A stretch of 64,000 bases of DNA from the NCBI RefSeq assembly GCF_032854445.1, contig NC_088300.1, forward strand, positions 64,082,984 through 64,146,983, written 5' to 3'. Position numbers and translations under genes: made by a program. Shown here piece by piece: positions 336-63,265 of this stretch. The notes beneath the pieces were generated by a model. It had not been told where the DNA came from. It worked only from the letters and a program-made list of their open reading frames with translations, and ran no database searches. Source of the DNA: Liolophura sinensis. Its lineage: Eukaryota > Mollusca > Polyplacophora > Chitonida > Chitonidae. The first letter of the stretch is position 1. Every line of letters starts with the position of its first letter.

Positions 336-422
336 GCTTTTTCTCCGTCCAACCATCAAAAAATCACGCCACAAAATTGGACAGAATGGTGTGTAGGGAT
401 AATCCCCAGAAGCCTACATATA

Positions 423-1902
423 AACTGACGACCAAAAGAAACTTTACAAAGGGTTCAAATCAATTTATTTTGCCGAAGCAAAAAACAAGATGACTGAAGT
501 TTGATATATTTGAAACGACCAATGACTTTAGATATTGAAAGTCTTGAGTAAGAACGGACAAAGCAACCCTCAAATCATTTTCCAAGTGGACAAACACAGC
601 AGGGGTAGAAAAAGTAGCCATTCCATCTTGGTTAACAACGGGCAGAGTATACAAAAAAAAATGATTATTTTTTAAATCAGTCAATATCAAAATCAATCAA
701 TATCGCATGTGACCACCCCTTGCTTCAATGCATGCAAAAACTCTCCGACGAATAGAAAAAGTCAGCCGCCTGATGGGATGACGTGTTGCCATTCATGTCG
801 GAGAGCGAACGCCAGTTCTTGTCGGTTGGCCGCCAGGTGTGGCCGTTGTCTTACTCGACGACCCATGATATCCCAAAGGTGTTCTATGGGGGACATATCT
901 GGGGAACGTGCACGCCACGGCAACACGTTGACATCGTTGGCGTCCAGGAAGTTCTGCACAACTCGAGCTGTATGGGGTCTGGCGTTGTCATGCTGGCACA
1001 GGACACCACATGGCTGCTGTTGAAGGAATGGCAGGAAAACAGGGCGTAGAATTCATCCACCTAACGTTGAGCTGTTAGGTTCCCGTAGATGATGACCAGT
1101 GGTGTCCGTTCCTCTCCACAAACCTCACGCACACCATCCTGGTGTGGTACCACCTCGGTACCACCTCCTGGACTCATGATGCGCACGTTCGTTCGCCTCT
1201 CCGATGGTAAATCACGTCGCTGCCAACGGCGTACAATTCGAGCCCATGGCAACCTCTGGCGACGATGTTCGGCTGTCAACAACTGCCCTCTGAATGGTCG
1301 ATAGGCCCTAATTCAGTGAGCGATGGTCTCCTGGACACGGTCTGCCGACTGACCGGGTGACATAAGGCATTCATTGACGATGACGTCACTGTCAAGAAGC
1401 GGTTTCTCAGGTGTAAGGTGGGCAGGTACCGTCTTTTCTGGGCGTAGTTACCCTAGGCCTGCCTGTTCTTGGCCTGTCCGATGTCTGCCCTGTCTTTCTG
1501 TAACGTTGCATCACGTTTGACATAGTTACAGGAGAGCAGCCGAAGGTCCATGCAATGTAGGCATGGGTGGCTCCCATGGATACCATACCCAGGGCCGTCT
1601 GGCGTTGTTCTGTCAATCGAGGCATAACTTTGGTGGTTTTTTAGTCAGTGTGCAAGTCCAGCCCACTGTGTGTAACGTTTTTATACACGTGGTACATGTG
1701 CAGTTGCGGCCATCCATGGGTCACGTGATTTTTCAACTTTCTTCGTTGTCTGAAAACAAATTCGTGTGGCGTATATGACGCTTGTCGCACATGAGAATAT
1801 ACTTCGTACAATGTTTTCCTGCAATAATTTTGGTATTAATCTGTTGAAACGGCTGGTTAAATTTAACTCACGGGGTTGTAAAGTTTCTTTTGGTCGTCAG
1901 TT
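423..1902 (-). mobile_element. Degraded Tc1/mariner transposon (1,480 bp) in sulfatase intron 9
   Basis: Inverted termini match: AACTGACGACCAAAAG at 423 and its reverse complement ending at 1902, continuing through AAACTTTACAA. TA duplications lie at 421-422 and 1903-1904. Inside, minus-strand fragments in different frames read as a Tc1-like transposase. The N-terminal helix-turn-helix and GRPR hinge lie at 1407-1625. A WARE/RRWQRRD-like stretch lies near 1061-1282. The terminal SPDMSPIEHLWD block with the catalytic Glu lies at 762-959. Frameshifts and missing catalytic residues make it non-autonomous. Its right end is 17-18 bp from the sulfatase exon 1921-2018. Confidence 0.88.
762..1625 (-). 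pseudogene. Tc1-like transposase pseudogene
   Basis: Remnant of a DDE transposase of the Tc1 family. The N-terminal HTH part (1407-1625, MPRLTEQRQTALGM..., ending near GRPR) and the C-terminal DDE part (SPDMSPIEHLWD at 762-959) are in different frames. The middle is scrambled, so no active protein can be made. Confidence 0.85.
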
Positions 1903-1920
1903 TAGACGAATCTGACTTAC

Positions 1921-2556
1921 ATCGGTTGTGAATATAACCACAGCATTGTCCAGAAATCCCTCTGTGTCCAAAGCCTTCATGATCCGACCAACAGCGTCAT
2001 CCAAGGCCGTCACCATACCTTAAACAGGTGTGAAGAGCAGCTAAGAATTACGTGTTTAAGAGGATTGGCCTCACGACTTAAAGGATGAAAGGGTCTGGTC
2101 TATATTTGTGAGGAGGGATAATCAGGGCCTGAACTGTAATAGTGCAAAACAATGCTGTATGAAAGAAATATTTGTTTTTGTTTATCCTAAAACTGTTATA
2201 ATATTATTTCCGTCGTATCACATACCGTAGTATCGGTTTTATTATCATAGCATTCAAAGTGCTCATATCCTATTTGCAGTGCTGTCTCACTGAAGTAGGA
2301 TGCCAATGAACTCAAACATAACACCAAACATGCCACCCATCCTAATAAAAGTTATTAATTAATCATTAAAACAGAGAAACAAAGGGTAAACTTTTAAATT
2401 CAGCGCCCCAATCATTAGGCAGTTAAAAAAATACTGGAATATGACTTACCGCAATACTTTCTCCGCTCTTTGTTCACTACGTTCGGATACATATCCTCAT
2501 AGTGTTTTGGAACCTTCAATAGTATTGAAACAGTAACAACATTTATGGCAACAATG

Positions 2557-2588
<32 letters not shown>

Positions 2589-5500
2589 GATTGGTGTTCT
2601 CAAGAATATATTCACCTGTACAACGACGGCCAGCATTATGATGGGCGAATACCCCCGGGGAAAACCTGGGTGAAACGCACGACCATAGGCAGGCTGCTGA
2701 GAGATCGTCCCACGCAAAGCATGAGCTGGATTTGAACTCACACCAACCGCACTGGAGAAAGGTTTCTCGGGTATTGCGATGCGCTAGCATGCTAAGCTCT
2801 CGGCTAAGGAAGAACAAAATTGCTTACTGGTAAGGATGGCAAAACACAACAAAAATGAATGAGGGGATATATGCAACCTTATCAAATGTCACCCGAAATA
2901 AAATTAAATGTCAGGAACCTTTTATGCCAATGTCTTGCTTTCAACAAACATGGCAAATATGGTTATTTTAATTACTGTGTATGTATTGATGCATTTGTTA
3001 TTGCGCCACGCACTAAAAACAACACGCCATATTGTGATAGAGATTAAGCTATAGACTTGAATTCTCACGACTAATTAGGTCTCACCTCGACAGGACTGTG
3101 CACAGCTTGGAACGGGAGGTACAGGAACAATGGAGATTGAGAGGCATTGTGGGAAGATATGATCTCCACGGCTCGTCTTTCAAATGTGTTCTGGAACACA
3201 GTACAAGTGTTATGCAGTGAGGCTGGAGCGCAAACTGTAATAAATCACACTACCCTTGTTCTTACATTAACCAAAAAATATACTCTTAAGTAACCAGTAT
3301 TCGAACAAGCGGTAATTTTTTTCATTACAGGCGATTACAGCAATTGAATAAATCCTACCGGTGATTATAAAATACAGGTTAATTAAAAGCGCAAGATTCC
3401 TGAGAAATTGCGAATTACGTGAACTGCATATGCTAGAACTGTATATACTATTCTACAGCTTCACTGTCACTCAACAACCAGTAGCAAATACATGTGAAGA
3501 AGTAAAGAACCAATTGGGAATGTCGGCTTCGCCAGTTATATGTAGCGTCATGAACAAGAACTGATACCATGCCTGCTATAAGATCGTCATGCACAGTAGG
3601 CCTACATGTCACGAACCAGAGCTGATATCGTCACTAATAGATAGTTGTCCACCCACAATTTACGCCACCTCACCAAGCAGAACTGATGGTGTGAATGGCA
3701 GTTCTCTAGATACATGTACACATGTCTGGTGAGTTCTCCAGATACAATTTACGTCACCAACCAGAGCTGATACCGTGAATGGCAGTTTTCCAGATACACG
3801 TACACGTGTCTGTTGAGTTCTCCAGATACAATTTACCTCAGCAACCGGAGCTGCTACAGTGACTGGGGAGATTCCTGGTTACAGACTGACCAACCAGTTT
3901 GACTTCATTATGTGACTGACAAGTTTGCAAAATCTTTATTAACTCGACAAATTCTATTCCAGGCGAAAGAATAAAGCATGTCTAAAAGACCACAAATAGT
4001 TGTTCACATCGTGTCCTTGACGTAGTGCAAAGCTAAGCCTAATGTCGGGTGTGCTCACGTTACGCGCAGACGTCCAGAACGGGGACGATCCCTGAAGTCC
4101 TGAAAATTTCTCTGACGTCAGAAATGTGCTGCAGTCGTGTTCCGTCTGAATGCATACAGCTTGCTACTTGCTGCTTGAGTCAGATGTTCTAACGAGACAA
4201 ACAACTAAATTAAACGTTTGCCATTTTGTCCATACTCTTCTCTTAAGACATGATTTTTATGTCACTGCGTATCCTTAGCTTAATGCGGAATGTTCTTTTA
4301 TACTCTTATTCATTTGTTATTTTTAAATGTGAGGAAATGTCAATGCACAGCTACCGAGTATAGTATTTACGGTTGAGAGTAGATACTGTGTCTGGTGTCA
4401 CGAAGCAAAACTCTTCCTTCGTATACACGTACCGTGGAATATTCGCCTTTGGTGTTCTTGTATACTTCTTTGTTGAACCGAAAATCGTACCCTAAAGCTG
4501 GAAAGCAAATAATAGACTAACAATACATGTTAGTTCTTAAATGTTAAATGGCCGTACAGTTTCGGAACCAAGAAATTTTCAGAACACAGCCACGTTACTA
4601 ATCCTTAAACAACAGTGTTATATTTTGTCCAATTCATTTTAATAAGGCGTATTAATTGAACACTATATATATATTTATTTATTTGATTGGTATTTTACGC
4701 CGTACTCAGGAATATTATATAATATTTATACGAATGCGGCCAGCATTACGGGGGGGAGGAAACCGGGCACTGCCCACGACCATCCGCAGGTTGCTGGAAG
4801 ACCTTCCCACTTACGACCGGAGAGGAAGCCAGCATGAGCTGGACTTGAACTCACAGCGACCGCATAGGGGAGAGGCTCCTGGGTCACTACGCTGCGCTAG
4901 CGCGCTAACCGACTGAGCCACGGAGGCCCCCTACTCTATATAAGATGGTAACAAAACTGACGCGATGTACACAACTCCAATGATATGCCCTTGTATAGCT
5001 ATAGTACAGTAGTGCTAAATGCCTAAGACATACATATATGTATAAGTGTTCTGTAGCACACAGCCAACAGACTGTTATGAGTAAGTTCAATAGTTATTTT
5101 CATATCAATTAATTAAGGACTCTCGTTGGCTCGGTCATCTAAAGTGATGCGCTGGATCAATGCTGAGTAGCAGAAACTCGTCTGGTCTCGTTGGTTCTGC
5201 TTCGGTCGTCTATCAAGATGTTTATCAGTTAAGCTACCTGGCGAAAGGCAGGTTTTCACCGAGTCGTGGTTTTCACCGAGTCGTGGTTTTCACCGAGTCG
5301 TGGCTTTCACTATGCAGGCTCTGTCAGTTTTCCGCAATCCATATATGTGATTGCCGTGTTATAATTTCACAGGCGCAAAAGTCCAATAAATAAACAAATA
5401 AATAAATAAATAAATAAATATCAAATGACATGTGTACCTATTTTGTGCGTGTAGTAATCCTCAGCACCCTGATAGTAGCCCAAAAAGCTGTCAAATCCTC

Positions 5501-8500
5501 GGTAAGTTGGCGTGTAGCTCCAGTTACAGAAACCAAGGTGCCATCTGTGAAACAATAAACATGGTAGTCTGACATTACGAAAGCACATCATACCTAATCA
5601 AATTAAAAAGGGCTTAAATGGTCCTGGGAATAGTTGGAACAAAACCCTAACTCAAGAATATTTTACTTATACAACGGCGACTAGTAGAAATCGGGTAGAG
5701 TCTGGGAGAAACCTCAGACGAAACACTCCACCACCCAAAGATTGAAGGCTGACCTTTCCACGTATGATGGAGGAGGAAGCCAGCGTTGGCGAGAAGCTCC
5801 TGGGTCATTGCGCAACGCTGGCACGCCCCCATCACCGTTCTAATTTTATTCTCTAAGGTGCAGTCATTTATATTGACCACGAAGACATGGACATAACTTA
5901 TGCTATCAGGGCTGTCAGGTTTTTGAAGTGGTCAGCTGGAATACGAGTTTAGAAGTGATTGTGAATTTCAACTTACCGGTACCAAAAACTGAGCACTGTT
6001 GCACCATATTTGACTATGTTTTATGTCACAAATGGTTTTGTTAAGCAACTTAAGACTTAAGTCAAAAACTGCAAATGCTTAAAAGGCCAAACTCCGAAAG
6101 GGAAAGAATTCAAACAGTGGTTGGTATACTTTGTTCTGCAGAGAAAAAAATCAGTCTAGAAAATTTCACCAACCTAGAGTAAAACATTTTAACTGTAGCT
6201 GTGTTAAAATTTTTGACTCATGCCATATACATATACGAGCCCCGGTTTGTTTTACCCATAGCAGAAATGGCTCTGCGGAACTGGCCCTGCTTTCATATAT
6301 ATGTATGACCCGGACAGTGCTTAATTCCAGTACGACTTTTGGACGTCTGAACTTAGTAATACATTTTCTAAATAATATAGCCATACTTTATAATGATCTA
6401 GCATGCCTTTGGGGCAATTCACATACAGGGTGCCAAAGGCCAAGCTTTAACTGTACTCATGCATCATACATTGGTAAATCACACTCACTTGCCGACCATG
6501 TGACTGGTATAACCGCGCTTTTTCAACCTCTGAGGAAGAAGAGTGTATTTGGACGGTAGAAAATTGGGTTGCGATCCCATGATTACATTGTGCTGAAAAA
6601 AAATCAAAACATTCCTTTTGATAAAAAAACAAGAATGATTTTTACACTTTAGTTTAGAGGAAATTGAAACCTTATCCGAATGTGGTTAGCAGTTAGCTGC
6701 AATTTTACTGCTTACAATCTCTGCCAACAAAAACGTGCAGAAGTAAGCCACTATATAAAAATAAAGGTAATCTATTTAAACCAATTGCTTACGACAAACA
6801 TTGTTACCTGCAAACCCACGTGATACGGGTAAACCCCGGTCATGATTGCCGTCCTAGATCTGTAATCACAAGGTAAAAAATGGATATTTATTTATTTATT
6901 TGTTTTATTGGGATGGAACGCAACAACTCAAGAATATTTGACTTATACGACAGCAATCGGTTTTACGGGTCGAGAAAACGATATGAACCTGGGAGAACCA
7001 CAGCGCATCGGCCGTGCGTGAGTGTACATAGGACTGGTTGAGGATACATACAGGCTACACAAAGGTTGCACTGGACTGGTTGGAGATACACAGGCTGCAC
7101 ATGCAGTGTACATAAAAACTGCACAAAAGTCTTGTTGAGGATACATACGGTGTACACAATGGCTGCACACAGGACTTGTTGAGGTTACTAACGGTGCACA
7201 CAAAGGCTGTACACAGGACTGGTTTGGGATACATACGGTCTACAAAAGGCTGTACAGTACTGGTTGAGGATAACTTGGTGTACGCAAAGGCTGCGCACCA
7301 CTTGTTGATATTATATATAGACTACACGTATGGCTTGTTGAGGACACATGCAGTGTACACAAAGACTACACTTAGTACTGGTGGAAGGTACATATGGTGT
7401 GCACAAAGGCTGCACTCGGGACTGGTTGAGGATACAAACGGTGTGAGCAAAGCCTTTAGAAGATTGGTTGAGGATACAACCGGTGTACACAAAGGCTGCA
7501 CAACACTAGTAGATATTACACACAGGTTTGACGTATAATTTGTTGAGGTGTACACAAAGACTACCTATAGGACTGGTTGATGGTATATACGGGATGCTGC
7601 ACATAGGATTAGTTGAACATACATACGGTGTACACAAAGGCTGCACATAGGACTGGTTGAGGATAACACCAGAATGGGCCAGCTGGGCTAGGTTAGGGGT
7701 TATCATTGAGGGATTGTTCCAGCTGACATCGTTCCATCCTGTATGGAATATAAAATTAAGATTAAGCCTTAACTGATTTTATCAATATAATGTATATTGT
7801 ATAGTTAGATATCAAATATTGAATCTGGAGAATGGTGTCTGGATGTTACAAATTCCCCAGCTTTGGGTTTTGTATTTAATATACCAACTTGCCTAGTTAT
7901 TGCCCCTGTGCATGCATGTTTATACGCAACTGATTAATATAACGAGCTACAGACACACAGAAACACAGAAGGGTTAAGCTGCATCATTGGCAGCATTCAA
8001 ACGAGACAGCCTTTCAAGTACATGCAATTGTAAAGACTTGTAAAGAGGAAACTAGAAAACCTTGAAACCTTATTTTGAACAAATAATGTTTTTTTATATA
8101 TACTTATTGAGTTCGGATGTAACAACACGATAGTGTCGTTATAAATACTTGTAAAAAAATGCATCAGTAGACATAATTCTTAGAGAAGGAGAAACCCCAA
8201 AAATCACGCAAAAAAAGATGAAAGAGCGTGAAAACTTATTTGTAACTTTGGTCTTTAGAATTTTTTTTCTATCAGGAGAAAGGCGTATTTGAAAATATTT
8301 TTGTAGTATATATCGTCTTTGCATAATAATGTCATAATGTAACACATTTTTAATAAATATGTTTGCACTAGAATGTGGTCATTTCATTTAACAAAATGCT
8401 CTAAATAAGGATGTCTAATACATTTATTTGAACGTAAATTTGTTGTTTATATCCAAACATATGAATTATTATAACATTTATGAATACATTAAAAAATATA

Positions 8501-9856
8501 AATATGCTCAAAACCCAGATTGAACACATGTATTAGCCGAAATGTGTTTAAACACATATTACGAAAAGATACGTACAGGTGTATGCAATAATGGGTTATT
8601 TATAGTACTGTTAAAAAGACTCTCGAGTCGTCTCTGATATATGATGTCTGTGTGCGCAGACCATACATAAATGTCCACAAGTCCTAGTTTCTGACCCGGC
8701 GCGCGCTCAAGTTCTTGCTGTGCACCAAAAGAACCTTGAAAAGCATTGTTTATATACTGGGCCCGAATCTCAGCATCGGTGATGTTTAATTTATACACAA
8801 AACAATTAACTAAATAGTTCTTCCGACATAATCGTTCACGCGGTAACTCATATGTCAATAGATACGTGTTTTTACATATTTGATGGTTGTTTAAAGGCAT
8901 ACCCTAATTTTTTTCAGTTATACGATGGCAGTCAGTTTTATGGATGGGGAAAACCGGAGTACACCACCGACTTTGGGGTAAAGCTGTCGGTACAAATATG
9001 CACACAATTACTATTGGTGAAAGAAATGTAGATTTTAACGAACAGTGAGAGCAGTGAGGAACTTTAAAATTCCAAATCCCATCCTTGTATATGTAAATTA
9101 GAGGTCTGAGCGACATTTTCCTTCACCTACGTGGTTTAAGAATTCTGTACAATATAACTCGCAGGTTTTTGGATGCACTGTTTATAAATGGACCATCCAG
9201 TTAGTCTGTCTTTCGATCCTTTTCTCAGTTTTTTACATTTCTTTTAACATTGGCCTATCGGTCAAATTTTTGTCATTCTATCTTTCAACGCGTAACATTC
9301 AATTAATTAGGACCGGCCCCGATAGCAAAGTTGGTAGCAAAGCGTACAGCCTTACCTGCCTTCGGTAAGGCGTCTCAGTGAAGCAGCACTAGATAAAAGA
9401 GCGGTGGAAATCTGTCCTGCAACAATGAGGCACATTACATGCACTCTAAGGATTCCTTCGCCGTCATATGACTGAAAAATTGTTAAGTACGGCGTTAAAC
9501 CCCAAGCACTCACTCACTCAATTAATTAGGGGCCTGAGTGTAAGCCGACATCGATTTTGGCGAGATATCAGGGTTATTGCGAATTTAGGCTTGTTATAGT
9601 TCTGACGTAACACACCAGAGCTACAAACAAAACACATACTGGATAGGTGTATACCTAGAAGGCGTACTGTGCATTGCAGATTTTGGCAACACTCTATATG
9701 TATATATATATATATGCACATTGATCCATATATACTTGTCTCACCCAAATCGTCAGCCACAATGAGTATAACGTGAGGTGGAGTGGACTGCTCTGCAAGC
9801 TGACATAACACAGTCACTACTGTCAGTGCTACCGGTATCCATGCGGAGTCAGCCAT
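1921..9856 (-). CDS. Arylsulfatase B/I/J-type sulfatase, 5' nine exons (gene continues left of window)
   Basis: Hydrolyses sulfate esters, probably on glycosaminoglycans, in the lysosome or outside the cell (family knowledge). Coding exons in transcript order: 9745-9856, 7627-7738, 6808-6859, 6489-6592, 5438-5544, 4059-4099, 3086-3190, 2450-2513, 1921-2018. All junctions are GT-AG and phases agree, giving 265 residues with no stop. The start Met at 9854-9856 begins a hydrophobic signal-like segment (residues 5-21). Then come the metal-binding ADD (34-36) in a VADDLGWNDV motif, the catalytic Cys73 in CTPSR (73-77, the residue turned into formylglycine), GKWHL (126-130) with the active-site Lys and His, RGFDSFLGY, GAEDYYTH, AVHSP with His207, and VIFTTD whose Asp265 should pair with Asn in the next exon. 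Residues after 265 lie outside the window. The 41-nt exon at 4059-4099 is the weakest: its phase fits but its protein is poorly conserved. ARSB, ARSI and ARSJ cannot be told apart here. Confidence 0.9.
2561..2812 (-). repeat. SINE-A copy (nearly full length)
   Basis: Starts with a (TTTA)n tail, then TTGATTGGTGTT, CTCAAGAATAT, GGCCAGCATTATG, a GAGCTGGATTTGAACTCACA B-box region and a degenerate tRNA-like head. It lies in sulfatase intron 7. Confidence 0.85.
4675..4932 (-). repeat. SINE-A copy (full length)
   Basis: TTTATTTGATTGGTATTTTACGCC start, core GGCCAGCATTACG, B-box region GACTTGAACTCACAGCGACC, and head GCGCTAACCGACTGAGCCAC ending in GGAGGCCCC. It lies in sulfatase intron 5. Confidence 0.92.
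5252..5310 (+). repeat. 17-bp tandem repeat, about 3.5 copies
   Basis: Three exact units of GTTTTCACCGAGTCGTG (5252-5268, 5269-5285, 5286-5302) plus a partial unit. It lies in sulfatase intron 5 within a degenerate repeat that ends in (AATA)n at 5388-5420. Confidence 0.9.
5650..5840 (-). repeat. SINE-A copy, degenerate
   Basis: CTCAAGAATATTTTACTTAT, ACGGCGAC and GGAGGAAGCCAGC, followed by GAAGCTCCTGGGTCATT and ACGCTGGCAC, follow the family order with many changes. It lies in sulfatase intron 4. Confidence 0.7.
6890..7020 (-). repeat. SINE-A fragment next to the minisatellite
   Basis: (TTTA)n tail at 6890, then CTCAAGAATATTTGACTTAT and an ACGACAGCAATC core. It ends where the exon-derived array starts, so it marks the distal end of the array in sulfatase intron 2. 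Confidence 0.75.
7022..7665 (-). repeat. Exon-derived minisatellite at sulfatase exon 2 / intron 2
   Basis: About 14-15 degenerate tandem copies (unit mostly 41-45 bp, a few 35-56) fill 7022-7626 of intron 2 and run directly into exon 2. The founding unit is the last ~39 nt of exon 2 (coding ILNQSYVQPLCTP) plus the first intron bases with the 5' splice site GTATGT. Exact GTATGT (ACATAC on the plus strand) persists at 7046-7051, 7143-7148, 7231-7236 and at the real donor 7621-7626. Copies are substantially diverged, so the array is not very recent. Open frames on both strands across it are by-products of the repeat. Confidence 0.9.
8916..8960 (-). repeat. Possible short SINE-A core fragment
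   Basis: GTTATACGATGGCAGTCAG followed by a GGGGAAAACCGG piece resembles the SINE-A core only. Weak. Confidence 0.35.
9312..9518 (+). mobile_element. SINE-B (V-SINE/RUDI-like) insertion with 12-bp target duplication
   Basis: tRNA-like head (CCCCGATAGCAAAGTTGGTA), CCTTCGGTAAGGCGTCTCAG body, and the 3' end GTTAAGTACGGCGTTAAACC with CACTCACTCA. Identical 12-bp direct repeats CAATTAATTAGG at 9300-9311 and 9519-9530 flank it. It lies in sulfatase intron 1. The RUDI comparison is from memory of mollusc SINEs. Confidence 0.85.
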
Positions 9857-17821: not shown

Positions 17822-19481
17822 CAGTCCTGGAAGAAAGTTTGGAATATTGGTGAATTTCACACCATCTCCACGAAGAGCGTGGTTCGTTGTGTTCAGGTCA
17901 ATAATCTGTCGATTGGTTTCACTTGGACTAGTCTCTATGATGCATTATCAATAGTTTCCTCAAACCAAAACATTTCTAAATGTTATAGAAGACGAGTTTT
18001 TCACGATATTCTGAAAGCGCCCCAAACAAGTGCAGAAATTCAGTGAAACCCATGTATTTTATTACGAGCTGTAGCTTTTATTCGATTGGAAATATGTCTA
18101 CAATACTTGGTAAGTTAAATATGCAAAACACTAACAATACAGAAAATTAATTTAGTACTTGGTGTGCCCACCCCTCGCATTGTACAATGCGCGCACACGT
18201 CTTGGCATACTGGCAAAGTTTCTTCCGGTATATCTCTCCAGCAAGTGAGCACAGCACGAGTTCAGCCACGTTCGTTGGGGTTTCATCCAGGTTATTCAAC
18301 CCACGGGAAACTTCCGCCCACAAGTTCTCAATTGGGTTCATATCCGGTGAAATGGCTGACCACTGCATGTGCTCAACACCCTCCTGTTCCAGAAAATTCC
18401 GTATCAGTTCGGTCCGGTGCGGCGTGGTGTTGTCGTCCTGATACACAAAGTTTGCCCTGAATTGTTGCCGAGCAAATGGGAGCATTATCGTTTCCAGAAT
18501 CCGTTGATATTGGTGCTGGTTCATGTGTCCATCCAAGACGTGCAGGTCGCATTTACCAGTGCTATGAAAAGCACCCCAGACGGTGACCCCACCGCCCCCG
18601 CCTTGGACTCTGGGCATGATGCAATCTTCGTTCAGAGCCTCGTGAGCCTGACGACGCACCATCACACGGCCATCTTCCCGGTAGACGACAAAACGAGACT
18701 CATCACTGAATATCACGTGTCGCCAGTGTCCCACCTGCCAGTTCAGGTGTTCCCGCGCCCAGGATAAGCGTGCCTGGCGGTGTCGACGCTGTAGCAAAGG
18801 CTTCCTCTTAGGCCTCCTTACCAAATACCCAGCAGTCAACAGTCTGGATCGCACTAAGCGGCTTGACACAGGAGAATTGGTAAATCTCATCCAGTCAGCG
18901 CGTATCTGGTTGGAACTCTTCGTACAGCCATTGCGGCAAAGTCTCACCAGATACCGGTCCTCTCTCTCGGTGGTCTTTCGTGGCCGACCAGACCTCGGTC
19001 TAGGCGTCGGCACACCCGTCTGTCGGTGTCGCTTAAAGATTTTGGAAACGGCTCCCTGAGTGACACCAAGAGCTGCTGCAATGTCCTTCTGTTTTGCACC
19101 AGCCAGGCTCATACCAACGATACGGTTGCAGACTGCAGCACTCAGTTGACGTCTCATGATCACAGCAGTATTGTTGGAAACACTCTGGAGCACTGGCATG
19201 CCTTAACCGAGCTTTTATAAGAGTTACAAGGTTAAATTATAATCATGTCTGCGTACATGACTTTTTCACTGAGAAATGGATGGTCATGCTTTGTCCCAAC
19301 TGTAATTTTGCTCAGGTGACACAAGCAATAATGGTGTGTATGAGCTGAAAGGGGGCATAATCCACTACATTTTCCACCCAAACAAGAATGTGTGCATTCA
19401 ATGTAAGGCGCACAAAAGTATGTTTCTGGTAAATGCTATCATCAGTGAAAACAATATTCCAAACTTTTTTTTCCAGGACTG
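17822..19481 (-). mobile_element. Intact Tc1/mariner transposon nested in the RT copy
   Basis: 1,660 bp element. Inverted termini of ~28-30 bp begin CAGTCCTGGA and include GTTTGGAATATTG at both ends, differing by a few bases or indels. TA duplications are at 17820-17821 and 19482-19483. The sister retroelement fragment at 15885-16080 has the uninterrupted sequence (ACAAGTTATTACTGC on the minus strand), matching the joined flanks here with one TA. Carries one transposase gene on the minus strand. Confidence 0.95.
18147..19199 (-). CDS. Tc1/mariner transposase, intact 350-aa frame (DD34E)
   Basis: Cut-and-paste transposase that binds the element's inverted termini and excises and inserts at TA. 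N-terminal helix-turn-helix DNA-binding region at about residues 24-66 (ALGVTQGAVSKIFKRHRQTG), GRPR hinge at 71-74, and DDE catalytic core: Asp166 in VIFSDESRF, Asp256 in VYQDDNTTPH, Glu291 in SPDMNPIENLW. The last two are separated by 34 residues, the DD34E spacing of Tc1. Length and motif order are normal for the family and there is no internal stop, unlike the Tc1 remnant at 423-1902. Met15 (MRRQLSAAV) is an alternative start. Coding potential looks complete; activity is not shown. Confidence 0.93.
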   Translation of the reverse strand: MPVLQSVSNNTAVIMRRQLSAAVCNRIVGMSLAGAKQKDIAAALGVTQGAVSKIFKRHRQTGVPTPRPRSGRPRKTTEREDRYLVRLCRNGCTKSSNQIRADWMRFTNSPVSSRLVRSRLLTAGYLVRRPKRKPLLQRRHRQARLSWAREHLNWQVGHWRHVIFSDESRFVVYREDGRVMVRRQAHEALNEDCIMPRVQGGGGGVTVWGAFHSTGKCDLHVLDGHMNQHQYQRILETIMLPFARQQFRANFVYQDDNTTPHRTELIRNFLEQEGVEHMQWSAISPDMNPIENLWAEVSRGLNNLDETPTNVAELVLCSLAGEIYRKKLCQYAKTCARIVQCEGWAHQVLN

Positions 19482-25893: not shown

Positions 25894-26014
25894 TTCTTTC
25901 CAGATAGTGCTGCTGTCAGTCTGTTGTCTTGTTGAGCCCCAGTACCCTTACTCAATTCTTTCCAGATAGTGCTGCTGTCAGTCTGTTGTCTTGTTGAGCC
26001 CCAGTACCATTACT
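25894..26014 (+). repeat. 62-bp tandem duplication
   Basis: Two near-identical units (25894-25955 and 25956-26014) containing TTCTTTCCAGATAGTGCTGC and GAGCCCCAGTACC. They differ by about two bases in the shared part, so the duplication looks young. Each unit contains a polypyrimidine-CAG acceptor-like stretch. Confidence 0.9.
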
Positions 26015-37900: not shown

Positions 37901-39764
37901 TTTTTCTCCAACTCTCTTATTATCGAAAGGACCTGCCCCAATAGCACAGTTGGTAGAGCGTCCACTTCGCTAGATTAAGGGTCAATCCTGGGTCGAGTTA
38001 CACCTAAGACTTCAAAAGAGGAAGTTGTAACTTCCTTGCTTGGCGTTCAGCATGAAGGGATGAAGTGCAGACTGGTTGACCCGTATCAGTATAATGATAA
38101 TCAGTGGTAATCAGTATAATCAGCAGGGTGGCTTAGTTGCCTTCGGTAAGGCGTCTCAGTGAAGCAGCACTAAGTTAAAGACCGGTGGAAATCCATCCTG
38201 CAACAAGGAGGAACATTACATGCACTGTAAGGACTCCTTCATCATCATAAGACTGAAACGTTGTTAAGTACGACGTTAAACCCCAAGCACTCACTCACTA
38301 TTATCGAAAAGAGATATGCTTTTAAAGACTTTGTTGAACTGTTTATCATTATGTTGTTTGTGCCCTTAGGTGGCTGTCAAGTCCTCCAAGCAGAAGTCTG
38401 CATTATCTAGTGGACCCAAAGATCCTGGCAGTGGCAGTAAATCAGTGAAAAGTGAACAAACAGGACTTTTCCCATTCCGAAGAACAGAGCCTTTAAAGGT
38501 ATTTGTTCTTAATCAAATCTTATGAGAACTTTTTCTCTAATCCAGAGATAGACAGCTGCCATTCTCAGTATCTGAAATGTGTGTTCTTGGAGTATGAGTA
38601 AATTCTGCAGTGTGGTTAGTACTTAGTAACTTTAGATAAAAAAAAAAAAATGTGTTCATTATGAAAAATCAATCAGTAGAATTGAATGAGAGATCATTTC
38701 AGCTCAAAAAAAAAACAAAAAAACAACAACAACAATATTTACATATAATGCATTGTTACAGCTGTTATCTTTCCAGTCCTTACATTGGACCTTGTCACAC
38801 TTGTTCTCTGTCATCTTTCTGTCTTTACATTAGACCTTGTCACACTTGTTAGCTGTTTTCTCTTCAGTCCTTGCATCAGATCTTGTCTTCGATGTTTGCT
38901 GTTATCTTTCAAATCTTTACATCAGACTTCACCACACTTCTTTGTTGTTGTATTTTCAGCCATTTTACCAGACCTTGTCACACTAGTTTGCTGTTATTGC
39001 TCAGTCCATACATCAGATCTCATCACAGATGTTTGCCGTATTCTCCCCAGTCTTTATATCATCAGACCTTGTTATTTTTACAGTCTGTAAAAGTATAGGA
39101 GGCCTCAATGGCTGAGGGGGTTAGAACGCCAGCAGGGTGCAGTGATTCGGGAGCCTCAAACCAATGCAGTTGCTGTGAGTTCGAGTCAAGCTCATGTTGA
39201 CTTCCTCTCCTGACGTACGTGGGAAGGTCTGTTAGCAGCCTGCAGATGGTCGTGGGTTTCCCAGGGCTCTGACCAGTTTCATATAAGTGAAATATTCTTG
39301 AGTACGGTCTAAAATACTAATCAAATAAATAAATGTTAAGTTATCCCACTTGTTTTCTTGTCTGCTTTTTCCAGCCCTCATCGTCCAGGGATACCGCAGC
39401 ATCCGCTGCCAAGCCATTGAGCGGCCTAGCCAGTTTAGCTGCCAATCTTTCTGGAAAGGCCTCCTCCGACAGTACCAAGGCCAAGGCGGATAGCTCCAGA
39501 CAGAGCTCTGTCAAGCCAGACCCAGTCAAGTCCACCAGCTCAAAGATAGAACAGCACAGATTGTCCACTAGCTCAGCTCCAAAACTTGACCAGTCAGAAC
39601 GCAGTTCCAGCTCAGGTCATGGGTCCAAACAGAGTGGAAAGTCTTCGGGAGGGCCACACAAGTCATCGAGCTCTGGAGGTGCCGTGTCTGTGATGAATGC
39701 TGATAAACGTCTACAGATGATGAAGAAGAAGGCTGCTGCCAAGCAAATGAAAAGTAGCAAATGA
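34955..39764 (+). CDS. INTS12: Integrator complex subunit 12 (PHD-finger protein)
   Basis: Subunit of the nuclear Integrator complex, which processes snRNA 3' ends and attenuates paused RNAPII. Coding exons: 34955-35089, 35394-35498, 35897-36231, 37274-37340, 37717-37809, 38370-38498, 39375-39764. All are GT-AG with consistent phase, giving 417 aa (human 462). The N-terminal [20 protein letters not shown] is the short conserved segment known to contact the rest of Integrator. Residues ~95-165 are a Lys/Glu/Arg-rich charged stretch. The C4HC3 PHD finger spans ~188-238: [25 protein letters not shown]. The Ser-rich tail ends [15 protein letters not shown], matching the conserved C-terminus. Intron 5 holds a full SINE-B; intron 6 holds a minisatellite and a SINE-A. 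The 5' UTR is split by an intron. Confidence 0.97.
35930..36145 (+). repeat. Purine-only low-complexity exon segment of INTS12
   Basis: Coding stretch of AAG/GAG/AGA codons (Lys/Glu/Arg) in INTS12 exon 3. Long frames in other phases and on the opposite strand here (35926-36276) are shadows of this composition. Confidence 0.8.
37929..38298 (+). mobile_element. SINE-B (V-SINE/RUDI-like), full length, 11-bp target duplication
   Basis: Head CCCCAATAGCACAGTTGGTA (A box) with a GGGTCGAGTT B-box-like stretch, a ~200-bp middle, CCTTCGGTAAGGCGTCTCAG, and the end TTGTTAAGTACGACGTTAAA with CACTCACTA. TATTATCGAAA occurs at 37918-37928 and 38299-38309. It lies in INTS12 intron 5, same strand as the gene. 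Confidence 0.9.
38761..39079 (+). repeat. ~46-bp minisatellite, seven units, in INTS12 intron 6
   Basis: Units begin near 38761, 38805, 38851, 38898, 38944, 38990 and 39035. Rough consensus: GCTGTTATCTTTCCAGTCC, TTACATCAGACC, TTGTCACACTTGTTT. Each unit has a polypyrimidine tract, often ending in CAG. Just before exon 7 (acceptor at 39373-39374) the sequence CCACTTGTTTTCTTGTCTGC, TTTTTCCAGCCC aligns with the unit once the SINE at 39099-39333 is set aside. Confidence 0.8.
39099..39333 (+). repeat. SINE-A copy, full length, sense orientation
   Basis: Head GGAGGCCTCAATGGCTGAGG and GGTTAGAACGCC, B-box region GTGAGTTCGAGTCAAGC, CAGCCTGCAGATGGTCGTGG, and the end AAGTGAAATATTCTTGAGTA with CAAATAAATAAATG. 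It sits between the minisatellite and exon 7 of INTS12. Confidence 0.93.
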
Positions 39765-59500: not shown

Positions 59501-62110
59501 CCGCATCTGTAAATCAGATTTTCAACAACAAAATTGTCCATGTGTGCTAGGCTTTAAGGCTGGGAACTCACCTGAGACAAAGATCCCCTTGTCCCAATTC
59601 TGGTATATCTCACGTAATCTGTTTTGTCCACAGGCTTTGCCAAGACAACCTCAACGTAAGTGCCTTCAACATTCATTCCTAGAGAGAAATATATATGACT
59701 TATTATATAATGCCTTTTCATCTTGATCTTTCTTTATTTGTATTTCTTGAAAGAAGGAGGGCCTAGTACAAATGCTACATCAGTTAAAAAATGTTCCAGA
59801 TAGAGTCTACCTAGCGTTTCTCCCTAAGAAAACTTCTTATTTTCTCAAAAATTTCTGGCAAATGGTCCTGAGAGCTTGGGTTCAATATTCAGCCTATTAC
59901 ATGTAACTGTTGAAACAACTTCCCTCTTTAAACCTTTAAACATTTAATCATTTAATGTTCAACAGCCTCTTTTCATGTTGAATGATTTAATGATTGGTGT
60001 TTTTATTTAATACTCAAGAATATTTCTCTTATACGACCGCAGCCAGCATTATAGTGGGAGGAAACCTGGCAGAACACGTTGGAAACCCACAACCATCCAC
60101 AGGTTGCTGCCAGACCTTCCCATCCATGTTGAATGAGGGACGATATTAAGTTAATAATAAGCTAACATAAAATCCAATTTATACAGAAATATATCCCAAA
60201 AAAAATATTCTAGAGACTGCCCACAGCTTATGCTTCGAAGTGTGAATTTATACTGTATGTGCTCTTCTGTAAATGTAAGTCTGCCCCATAATTGTGTGCC
60301 ATTTCCTGTGCGTAGCAGGAGTATCAAACATCCTATAGGCAAGCAATGTGTCAGTTATTCACCGTTTAATCTTAATTACTTGAGTTAGCATGTTTTCCAA
60401 ATACTCTCCCTTAGATGTTGGGGGATATTCTATCATGTAATTTACTGTAAACATCAATCAAGTGAAAAACTAGTTTAAAAAAATTAAGAAAATTAAATTA
60501 AGTTAAGAATGTGCCACATGCCACTGACAAATGAAAATCAACTTTAATTATCAGAAACAGAATTATCAGAATGGAAATACATCACACTTTATAAATGCAC
60601 ACAAAAACTACATTCACCTACCAATCGTAGAAATATACTTCCACTAATGCATTTTGTATTTATCCAAAACCAATCAACACAGCTCAAAAATAAAGCTCAA
60701 TTTTTCTCACCATTAAGTTTAGTCATGGCCATAATAGCATCATCTCTGTCTCTAAAATGAATGAATGCGTAATCTCTGATCTTCTTTACTCTTTCCACAG
60801 CATTGTCTCTTCCCACAACTTGATTGCACAGCTCTCTAATTTTGTCTTCTGTAGTTGTCAACATAAGGTTCCTCATGTACAAAATTCTCACCTGTAATAC
60901 AAATATGCACAATATAAATATTATTCCAGTAATACAAATATACACAATATTAATGCACAAGCAGGCGATGCATCAGTCCTCTTAAGCCATAAGTGACTGT
61001 ATTAATTATTACCGCAGCCTCCCATACAAAAGAAATGACTTGTTGCAACAAATGCTGCGCGCGCGCACACACCAGCCTCTCGTGACGGAAAATGAAAGAG
61101 CAGACGATAATCAATTTCAAGAAGTTGCGCGACATTTTACACAAATATATCCACACAAAATACCCCTTTGATACAAAACTTTAGTTCAATTATAACTTTT
61201 CAAATAACGGCTTACATAAAGGTCAAATTTGTTTGGACTGTGATACCTACTCGTCAATTTTACAACTAACCAACCGATATTTCCGACATCTGTCAAACTC
61301 ATCGTTACGTCACACACACGGATACTGACAAGTGCTGTTTACATTGGCAATTAAATGTGTTTTAATTTGCAACGAAGAGACAACCAAAAACGCTCCTATA
61401 GTGGAAATTACATGACTTACAGTTGACATAACGTCTTCATCAACATCTTGTTCTGGTTCAGCCCAATCAACTGCAATTTGATGGCCCCATAACTGAATTC
61501 TGCCGGGAATGAGCTTCCTTCTTGCCATGGCGGCTGCCCGATGCGATTCATATTCCACAAACGCAAATCCACGGTTCTTTGCTTTGTCAATGGCTGATGG
61601 ATATACAATGACATCAGTTACACCATCCGTTACTTTTTTCATCTCCTGCAAAATTTCATCCCTCTGTTTGTTCTTTGGAATACCTCCAACGAACAATCGA
61701 CAGTTGTCGACGGATTTGCAAACACCCAAGAGCCGGCCTTTACGAATTTCGTAGTTGTTAAGCTCCTTTACCGCTTGTTTCGCGTGTTCTTTGTTAGTGT
61801 ACATAACGAATCCATATCCTCTATTGGATCCAGAGAAGTCCATCATGAGTCTCAGTTCGTAAATCTTCCCTATTTTCTCAAATATTGGAACAAGCTCGTC
61901 TTCGTAACAGTCTCTTGGAATCTTTCCGACGAAAATTTCGCAACCCCTTAAGGGAGCCGGGCCTTCCCAGTCGGGAGGTGGACCGCCGTACTTTCTTTGC
62001 CCATTTTCTTGTAGCATGGTGTATCCCGTTCTTTCCATAAGTTTCAGCAAGGCTTCTTCGTTTGGCGCCCCGGCCACACCATGCGGCAAAGCCTTCTCCG
62101 CGGATGCCAT
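53584..62110 (-). CDS. A1CF/RBM46-family RNA-binding protein (three RRMs plus dsRNA-binding domain)
   Basis: In vertebrates A1CF is the RNA-binding partner of APOBEC1 and RBM46 acts in the germline (family knowledge). Ten exons in transcript order: 61421-62110, 60711-60891, 59572-59678, 57542-57615, 56372-56516, 56048-56137, 55398-55505, 54978-55113, 54032-54211, 53584-53678. All are GT-AG and in phase, giving 601 aa (human A1CF 594). [20 protein letters not shown] leads into RRM1 (~57-133, [17 protein letters not shown]), RRM2 (137-218, [29 protein letters not shown]) and RRM3 (231-~305, [21 protein letters not shown]). An Arg/Gly-rich exon spans 351-399. The DSRM_2-type region (~431-511) has [20 protein letters not shown]. 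The tail is Pro/Ser/Tyr-rich and ends VELFQQIM. A1CF and RBM46 cannot be separated without a tree. Exon 5 has a tandem NAGNAG acceptor. Confidence 0.95.
57930..58870 (-). repeat. Degenerate tandem repeat, ~165-bp units, in A1CF-like intron 3
   Basis: Recurring blocks in order: ACCAAGTTTCAATTCAATA, GATGAACTGT, AAAAGTTCAAAAGC, AAAGGCCATA, TTGATGGA or similar, AACTTG. They appear about four times (near 58000, 58110, 58610, 58790). No coding potential. Confidence 0.6.
59988..60125 (-). repeat. SINE-A copy lacking the head
   Basis: GATTGGTGTTTTTATTTAAT, CTCAAGAATATTTCTCTTAT, GCCAGCATTATAGTGGGAGG, CATCCACAGGTTGCTGCCAG. It lies in A1CF-like intron 2. Confidence 0.88.
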
Positions 62111-63265
62111 ACCTACACCTTGCTGTTGGCCTCACTGCTGACGAAATAGGGGTAGGCAAAGTGGACTTTGACACGCATGTGAGAGACGTATAGATGCGCA
62201 TGCGTCCCACCGTGGGTCTCGTTTAAAAAATGCTAATTTATGACTACTCCAGAGAAGGTGTAAAACAAAGAGGTCACATTTAAAACAGCGCGCACGTTGG
62301 ATAGCGTTTAAACCGTAGAATAAAAACTACTTTCTTTATACGAGGAAGTTTCAAAAAAGTTGAAAGTAGTATTTTCGACTTGAAATTACTCATCATACCG
62401 GTTGGCCTGCATGTAGCCTACATTTATTGGGACTTTATAATACATTACTATACTGATTATGAGATAACACAGTTGTTAATATTCGTCAGTAATGTATATT
62501 TCGTTGTACGCTTACGTTAGATTTCTTATGAATGGTAGAACGAGCAGTTGAAAACCAAGAGAAGGGGATGTGTACCGTTGTTGATCAAATACTTTCGGAA
62601 AGAGTTTCGACGTTTGCTTTAAAAGTTACTTTTCCGTTGCTGTCTGATGTTCAAAGCAAGATCAGATATGATAATGCTAAGATTACTATCGAAATGACTA
62701 CCATTTGATCTACAGGTTTCTTATTTGAAGTCAGTTTAATGGAAGTTATGACAACTGAGCTGTATTGTCAAAGGCCGAGGAATTTACTTCACATCATGTG
62801 TCTAGGCCTACATATAGATACAATGTTGTAAATAGGTCCACACCCTAGGCCTACGCGTCCTGTGCGTTTTCAGATTCTCTTCATAGGACATAGACCAACA
62901 TGTTATTGTAGGGTACCTATGCCTTCTCATACAGTCGACGGTTCGTGTCTGGCCTGATTCATATCTGTGACAGAATACACATAAATCATTTACGTCAAGA
63001 GACGGTTTTTAGCGGCTAGTTGTGTTTAAATTACGGATTACTATAGTTAAATCGGTACCATGTGATCATGTGAACTGTTTACCAACAAGCCTACGTGTGA
63101 ATCTGTTATAATATAAAGTGCCGTCTATATAGGTCTGGGGCATGTAATAATTTGTACCTGCTCAATACCGTACAGCTTACCCATAGATACCGGTATGCTG
63201 TGAACATTGCGCGGTTTATTTGTAAACGTACATTCACATGTGCCTATGGGGGTGTCCGTGGACGA
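62111..63265. other. A1CF-like upstream region and gene-free stretch
   Basis: The first ~150 bp upstream of the A1CF-like ATG is GC-richer than its surroundings and is the likely 5' UTR/promoter. No TATA box or other gene recognised up to the SINE cluster. Confidence 0.45.

Follow-up and report, generated by a model that had tools for sequence, protein, structure and literature searches.

In the chiton Liolophura sinensis, the intron that splits the active-site motif of a sulfatase gene is filled with tandem copies of the preceding exon's end joined to its 5' splice site, which raises the question of whether these copies serve as alternative donors or are a by-product of repeat growth that the gene tolerates. 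A first-pass annotation of the same stretch of DNA (64,000 nt, hereafter the window) had offered both a splicing-controlled switch and a tolerated slippage scar. Our results indicate that the array is very likely a tolerated boundary-spanning ('mirage') minisatellite scar and not a switch. This reading fits best with the derivation of the array from the exon end, with the lack of conservation of its donor letters, and with the lack of an open frame from any of its three good decoy donors.

The gene, P1, lies on the minus strand of the window, looks intact and encodes an ARSB-like sulfatase. Within the window, nine exons with GT/AG borders were chained from an assumed start codon (9856), a tenth exon being left unchained, and further P1 coding motifs were found outside the window, past its start. 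The 273-residue product matched Pfam Sulfatase at 1.3e-47 in a profile search and human ARSB (N-acetylgalactosamine-4-sulfatase, 1fsu) at 1.5e-72, with CTPSR aligned to the active-site motif, so that it carries both the Sulfatase domain and the CxPSR motif of an ARSB-type sulfatase. Exon 1 (9745..9856), which was placed by its GT donor and the Pfam match, ends in ILIVADDLG. Exon 2 (7627..7738), placed by the exon chain and by alignment to 1fsu, ends in the catalytic-site codons VQPLCTP and terminates inside the active-site motif, two bases into the proline codon (phase 2). It is followed by intron 2 (7626-6860, 767 nt), for which inspection of the sequence gave GTATGT as the authentic 5' splice site (7621..7626), and by exon 3 (6808..6859; SRTAIMTGVYPYHVGLQ). 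The boundaries of exon 2, intron 2 and exon 3 had been called correctly in the first-pass annotation, and the join of the two exons reads ...VQPLCTPSRTAIMTG. The chain continues through exon 4 (6489..6592) and exons 5-9 (5544-5438, 4497-4433, 3190-3086, 2513-2450 and 2018-1921), all on the minus strand. Other P1 introns hold repeats of their own, namely an 84-bp tandem repeat of 2.4 copies between exons 6 and 7 (3667-3866) and, judged by eye, a broken Tc1-like element at about 1630-780 on the minus strand.

Intron 2 opens with 604 nt that consist of the real donor and unit copies, and only its final 163 nt (7022-6860) are non-array. Wraparound alignment placed the boundary minisatellite at 7023..7620 (minus strand) and gave a score of 558 (at most 44 in 20 shuffles) in 15 intronic rows made up of 14 near-complete copies and a 23-nt end. 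The unit, with a consensus period of 44, joins the final 38 nt of exon 2 to GTATGT. In local alignment, the exon 2 tail plus GTATGT scored 69 against the intron (maximum 33 in 500 dinucleotide shuffles), while the first 74 nt of exon 2 gave no match to intron 2 (12 vs a shuffle maximum of 26). The proposed origin from the exon 2 end and its donor was therefore borne out; an identity no better than shuffled sequence had been named as the outcome that would count against it, and the array is clearly exon-related. The earlier estimate of about 14-15 copies also held, and the unit, described as 41-45 bp with about 39 nt of exon, is refined here to a 44-bp consensus with 38 nt of exon. An assembly artefact is an unlikely source of the array, given that similar structures occur in a paralog at a distance of 15.4 kb and in other genes of the assembly. 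Within the non-array end of the intron, a piece of a dispersed repeat that looks SINE-like by eye (6884..6954, minus strand) matched elsewhere in the window, in the adjoining downstream piece (C6:64073000-64082983) and in 6 of 7 random 10-kb pieces. The opposite strand of the array carries an open frame of 140 residues (7116-7538, plus strand), which is probably a by-product of the repeats.

Exactly three intronic copies retain GTATGT at the donor place, in agreement with the 'at least three' reported before; the positions then given (7046, 7143 and 7231) mark where each hexamer ends on its 3' side, and the donor G's lie at 7236 (7231..7236), 7148 (7143..7148) and 7051 (7046..7051). The first two are identical to the authentic site at 11 positions, -3 to +8 (ACC/GTATGTAT, the slash marking the cut), and the third is nearly so (CCT/GTATGTAT). 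Computed U1 pairing was -3.8, -3.8 and -3.5 kcal/mol, respectively, compared with -3.8 kcal/mol for the authentic donor. With two decoys equal to the real donor at all 11 positions, a choice among these sites needs more than their own sequence to explain it. Diverged forms occupy the donor place elsewhere, as GTATAT in the first array copy (7585..7590), GTTTGT (7434..7439) and GTTAGT (7187..7192), the last two being out of frame. Thus, the description of the array as a string of decoy 5' splice sites stands on paper for two identical copies and one nearly identical copy, and beyond these it comes down to weaker GT variants at 7590, 7439 and 7192.

Translation from exon 2 into the intron reaches its first in-frame stop at 7506..7508, and this stop precedes all three good donors, so that their use can only truncate the product. 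Splicing from 7236 would lengthen the message by 390 nt and bring in a premature stop, and splicing from 7148 or 7051 would give a frameshift and a stop, as expected from the earlier suggestion that distal donors destroy the frame. The companion suggestion, that distal donors add iterated QPLCTP peptides to the catalytic loop, is largely unsupported by these same frames and by the position of the stop. When eight stronger donor candidates were screened, the authentic donor alone kept an open frame. Among the 75 GTs in the first 610 nt of the intron, 3 of the 74 other than the authentic one are in frame and open (7602, 7590 and 7521), with U1 pairing of -1.0, -2.1 and -2.6 kcal/mol, respectively, vs -3.8 kcal/mol for the authentic donor, and only 7590 holds the donor place of the array. 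Its use is predicted to insert 12 residues, YVCSTNPMCSIP, between CTP and SR, and a small amount of product with these extra residues is possible through this weak donor. Some stretches farther along the array still encode QPLCTP.

If the decoy donors were kept by selection, their letters should have outlasted the rest of the unit. We compared 27 intronic copies (14 from P1 and 13 from its paralog P2, with two short end rows dropped), and conservation of the donor hexamer was 0.728 (73%) vs 0.781 (78%) for exon-derived columns. GT was kept in 13 of the 27 copies by automatic count, one of these counts being an effect of gap placement, of the kind that softens single counts (by eye, the P1 copy at 7142 is TGCATGT), and 35 of 43 adjacent pairs were kept at least equally well. 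In P1 alone, GT was counted automatically in 8 of 14 copies, 6 of them clear by eye, and GTATGT in 3. With 27 copies this neutrality test has low power, and arrays at other sulfatase exons gave the same picture: GT was kept in 18/26 copies in L013 (mean adjacent pair 19.9), 11/16 in L027 (10.6) and 15/25 in L012 (18.2), which is about or below average. Selective upkeep of the decoy donors was accordingly rejected for P1/P2, L013, L027 and L012, and a conserved form of the splicing switch proposed in the first-pass annotation finds no support in these counts. The poorly kept C and G at the unit border form a CpG, and we infer that CpG deamination may be what kills the decoy donors.

When the genome (609 Mb) was searched with the array as query, with repeat counts to be taken as lower bounds, a single further match came up; it lies in intron 2 of the tandem paralog P2, 15.4 kb downstream of P1 (in L005, C6:64073000-64082983). 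P2 exon 2 is 93% identical to that of P1, and the P2 array has the same unit and breakpoints. Exons 2 and 3 of the two genes differ with a dN of 0.024 and a dS of 0.47 (54 codons, a small sample); the exon is protein-constrained, by this ratio and by the ARSB match, and is therefore the source of the array. The 25 best matches between the P1 and P2 regions are confined to exons, the array and a single dispersed repeat of 33 nt. That the array is still recognisable between the genes, unlike other intron sequence, could hint at some maintenance, but exon similarity and repeat turnover explain this too. Unit distances are star-like, with means of 0.17 and 0.20 to the P1 exon vs 0.28-0.31 among units, and units are about equally distant within and between the genes (0.283, 0.305 and 0.301); their separation by gene is unclear, the observed value being reached in 151 of 2000 permutations. 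Unit position 14 is T in the P2 consensus but C in both exons, and none of the intronic P2 copies carries both of the exon changes private to P2, so that exchange between array and exon is not visible in the sequences of either gene. The two arrays differ in content within one assembly, a difference that is evidence of turnover but not of polymorphism. The array thus probably originated a single time, at about the time of the P1/P2 gene duplication or earlier, and then turned over separately in each gene. P2 shows two further peculiarities: several small indels scramble a conserved stretch of its exon 4, after which the frame is restored, and its intron 2 holds a second tandem array with a period of 123 (L005 1200-1499).

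All four further paralogs compared (one on C9 and three at C6:71 Mb) have an intron at the same site without the array. The exon 3 acceptor is visible in each, and a match to the exon tail was absent from these four introns, with scores of 15-18 vs maxima of 24-26 in 200 shuffles. The intron is thus older than the array. In C1 paralogs such as L013 and L014, the exon continues through CTPTR without this intron.

Arrays that repeat an exon edge are also present at other exon borders of this genome. At the same active-site intron, L012 (C6:47341800-47346700, about 4330-3390) has some 25 donor-side copies of a 37-bp unit with other breakpoints, and L010 (C6:45.79 Mb) has a degenerate set that scored 74 vs a maximum of 26 in 20 shuffles. 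The different unit breakpoints suggest that the L010, L012 and P1/P2 arrays originated independently; in a small tree (about 75 residues) they did not separate from paralogs that lack an array, and the sequences would also be compatible with one shared ancestral array that was later lost in some paralogs. Exon 4 of L012 has in addition an acceptor-side set, weaker than the first and lying upstream of C6:47342365 (minus strand), and exon 2 of this paralog has an apparent frame break by eye. In L006 (C9:25647400-25652800, 397-3052), 28 copies of a 93-bp unit precede exon 4 of a sulfatase paralog; the unit includes about 44 nt of the exon 4 start, and the acceptor AG is missing in 28 of 28 copies. 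In the C1 cluster (L013, L014, L024, L027 and L029; C1:77.5-77.67 Mb), the exon encoding HPIHTG is followed by repeated donors with a unit of about 26 bp, and all four paralogs tested have an open, in-frame array donor (+54 in L013 and L024, +51 and +75 in L027, +39 in L014). L045/L046 have an acceptor-side array in which AG is kept (5/5 in L046), and L057/L058 a donor-side duplication of low copy number. Outside the sulfatases, a carboxylesterase-type exon (L139, C12:5733883-5735018) has a donor-side array with 10 flank copies, and a P450 exon (L099, C1:13845503-13846488) an acceptor-side array with 7 flank copies and about 10 coding bases. Another sulfatase gene, L040 (C6:9007880-9009580), has a plain tandem duplication of about 500 bp with exon and intron.

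Frequency was assessed by comparing exons with their own 400-nt flanks and counting exon-derived matches above shuffles. Such matches were found for 16 of 65 sulfatase exons vs 4 of 93 control exons (Fisher 0.0004), and for 10/65 vs 2/93 when at least 2 flank copies and at least 10 coding nt were required; the strict controls comprised 1/40 P450 exons (with exactly 10 coding nt), 0/16 ABC exons and 1/37 esterase exons. The 65 sulfatase places were drawn from 53 + 50 overlapping rows, leaving out duplicates, long single-exon matches and some others, and the controls were 40 of 99 P450 rows, 16 of 19 ABC rows and 37 of 87 esterase rows. The counts are incomplete, as the L012 exon 2 array was missed by the test and seen by eye. 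The sulfatase hits include tandem relatives, the starting points P1 and P2, the plain duplication L040 and an intronic second hit in L014; because of the tandem relatives, the exons are not independent and the sulfatase rate is inflated, which weakens the case for a sulfatase-specific cause. Seven random 10-kb pieces contained six arrays (period of at least 20, at least 5 copies) covering about 4%, so the border arrays may be the exon-edge share of a general minisatellite habit.

Several other features were noted in the window and the assembly. An array of about 45-46 bp (38760-39017, 5.6 copies) has a unit with an acceptor-like TTATCTTTCAG, and a search of 18 kb on both strands found no source for it above a score of 23. 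Two near-identical 62-bp copies (98% matches) at 25894-26014 start with an acceptor-like TTCTTTCCAG and could be a very recent border duplication. The window also holds a Tc1-type transposase frame (Pfam; 18147-19202, minus strand) and one or more exons of another gene with RNA recognition motifs (61313-62131, minus strand). Contig C99 carries seven COX1 copies at a spacing of about 15.5 kb and is probably a concatemer of the mitochondrial genome. The mitochondrial gene order, nad3-nad2-cox1-cox2-atp6, in which the genes besides cox1 were named by eye, is mollusc-like and makes a lancelet unlikely. A GFP-family search gave no match, which carries little weight on this point since its controls gave none anywhere.

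Two explanations of the array's origin compete with tandem growth out of the exon border into an existing intron. The array could be what remains of the tandem duplications that made the intron, a Rogers-type intron birth in keeping with an array that begins exactly at the donor and with L013 and L014, which read through CTPTR and show that some family members lack the intron. However, such a birth predicts that array-free relatives lack the intron, which is present in 4 of 4, and that one of the duplicate copies supplies the 3' splice site, whereas exon 3 of P1 is preceded by 163 nt that are not array; intron birth is thus largely refuted for P1, and we regard it as very improbable. Alternatively, a dispersed satellite might have invaded the exon end, the exon not being the source. 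Minisatellites are common enough here, as the six arrays in the random pieces attest, but the exon-derived part of the unit codes for a conserved catalytic motif, and P1 and P2 were the only places where a search, whose counts are lower bounds, found array DNA. An invading satellite is therefore largely refuted as well and seems extremely improbable.

Three other explanations would give the array a function. Distal donors might be used conditionally and the stop-bearing messages degraded, so that sulfatase output is tuned by the array; P1 looks intact across nine exons, two decoys match the real site and one nearly does, and each of the three leads to the frameshift or stop that such unproductive splicing needs. 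Against this, the donor letters are not conserved above other columns, and the loss of AG from 28/28 acceptor copies in L006 indicates that retained signals are not general in boundary arrays, which leaves a switch of this kind unlikely. A protein-diversifying device, in which array donors insert active-site-exon peptides into the catalytic loop, would be served by the open donor 7590 with its YVCSTNPMCSIP between CTP and SR, by the QPLCTP codons that persist farther along, and by the open in-frame donors of the C1 paralogs. The good decoys of P1 lie behind the stop at 7508, though, so that iterated QPLCTP cannot be translated from exon 2; the U1 pairing of 7590 is weak, and the C1 cases concern a different exon border, after the HPIHTG residues. 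We consider this device hardly probable. More broadly, boundary arrays might be a recurrent product throughout the genome of this non-lancelet animal and, within the expanded family of sulfatases, form ladders of rival splice sites, with distal C1 donors adding 13 to 25 residues in frame near the active-site region, the weak first P1 copy adding 12 and later copies leading to unproductive splicing, and with array length setting enzyme variety and dose between individuals; on the sequences compared here, this too is decidedly unlikely.

The tolerated scar has close relatives in amphioxus, where 'mirage' minisatellites (in Adh3, the globins BflGb6 and BflGb9, PGBD5 and troponin C) have been described as tandem duplications across an exon-intron boundary that affect 5' or 3' borders, carry splice signals in many copies and reportedly leave regular splicing undisturbed, with BflGb6 haplotypes of 6 and 3 units (PMC3087553, PMC3902484). 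The P1 array resembles the mirages in that its tandem units span the boundary (38 nt of exon and 6 nt of intron, about 15 copies) and keep the splice signals in many but not all copies. It differs in having a non-lancelet host, a sulfatase active-site exon, a 44-bp unit and about 15 copies. Judging by its title, the report of Turri, Cuin and Porter (1995) concerns a minisatellite that supplies several splice donors to a human interferon-induced transcript. The P1 array likewise appears to offer several donors, in this case candidates of equal U1 pairing. The human gene is said to be IFI6, and its unit reportedly a short donor-like repeat. In PMC2812944, human segmental-duplication paralogs are described as having internal tandem repeats at exon-intron boundaries, with an average unit of 30 bp, which may form novel introns and have transcript support; the P1 units similarly lie at a boundary in recently duplicated genes, but the P1 intron predates its array. 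Intron gain through tandem duplication of a segment with splice signals (Rogers 1989; Zhuo et al. 2007, as cited in PMC2812944 and PMC3087553) shares with P1 a duplicated segment that carries such signals, although the P1 intron was not created by it. We noticed no description of boundary arrays in sulfatases or in molluscs in the open-licence literature searched.

For the tolerated scar, we infer the following course. Tandem duplication would have placed copies of a 44-bp segment, which straddles the border of exon 2 and intron 2, in the intron, probably no later than the P1/P2 gene duplication, and the array would then have grown to about 15 copies by ordinary repeat turnover, either slippage or unequal exchange. 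The first copy would remain intact because it encodes the catalytic loop, while later copies would decay as neutral sequence. The spliceosome most likely still chooses the first donor and removes the array with the intron, and if one of the good distal donors were used now and then, the outcome would be a prematurely terminated message and no altered enzyme. Other exon borders of the genome, on the donor and on the acceptor side, have been hit by this process too.

Altogether, these results extend mirage minisatellites to an animal that is not a lancelet, Liolophura sinensis, in which boundary arrays are not a one-off but occur at several exon borders, in different genes and on both splice-site sides. 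Such arrays can mislead gene predictors into false exon ends. Each of them is also a natural experiment in the choice among near-identical splice sites and, if the first P1 donor is indeed the one picked, something beyond the site itself must decide. In addition, boundary arrays capture an early stage of a possible exon extension or intron change, which is usually seen only long afterwards.
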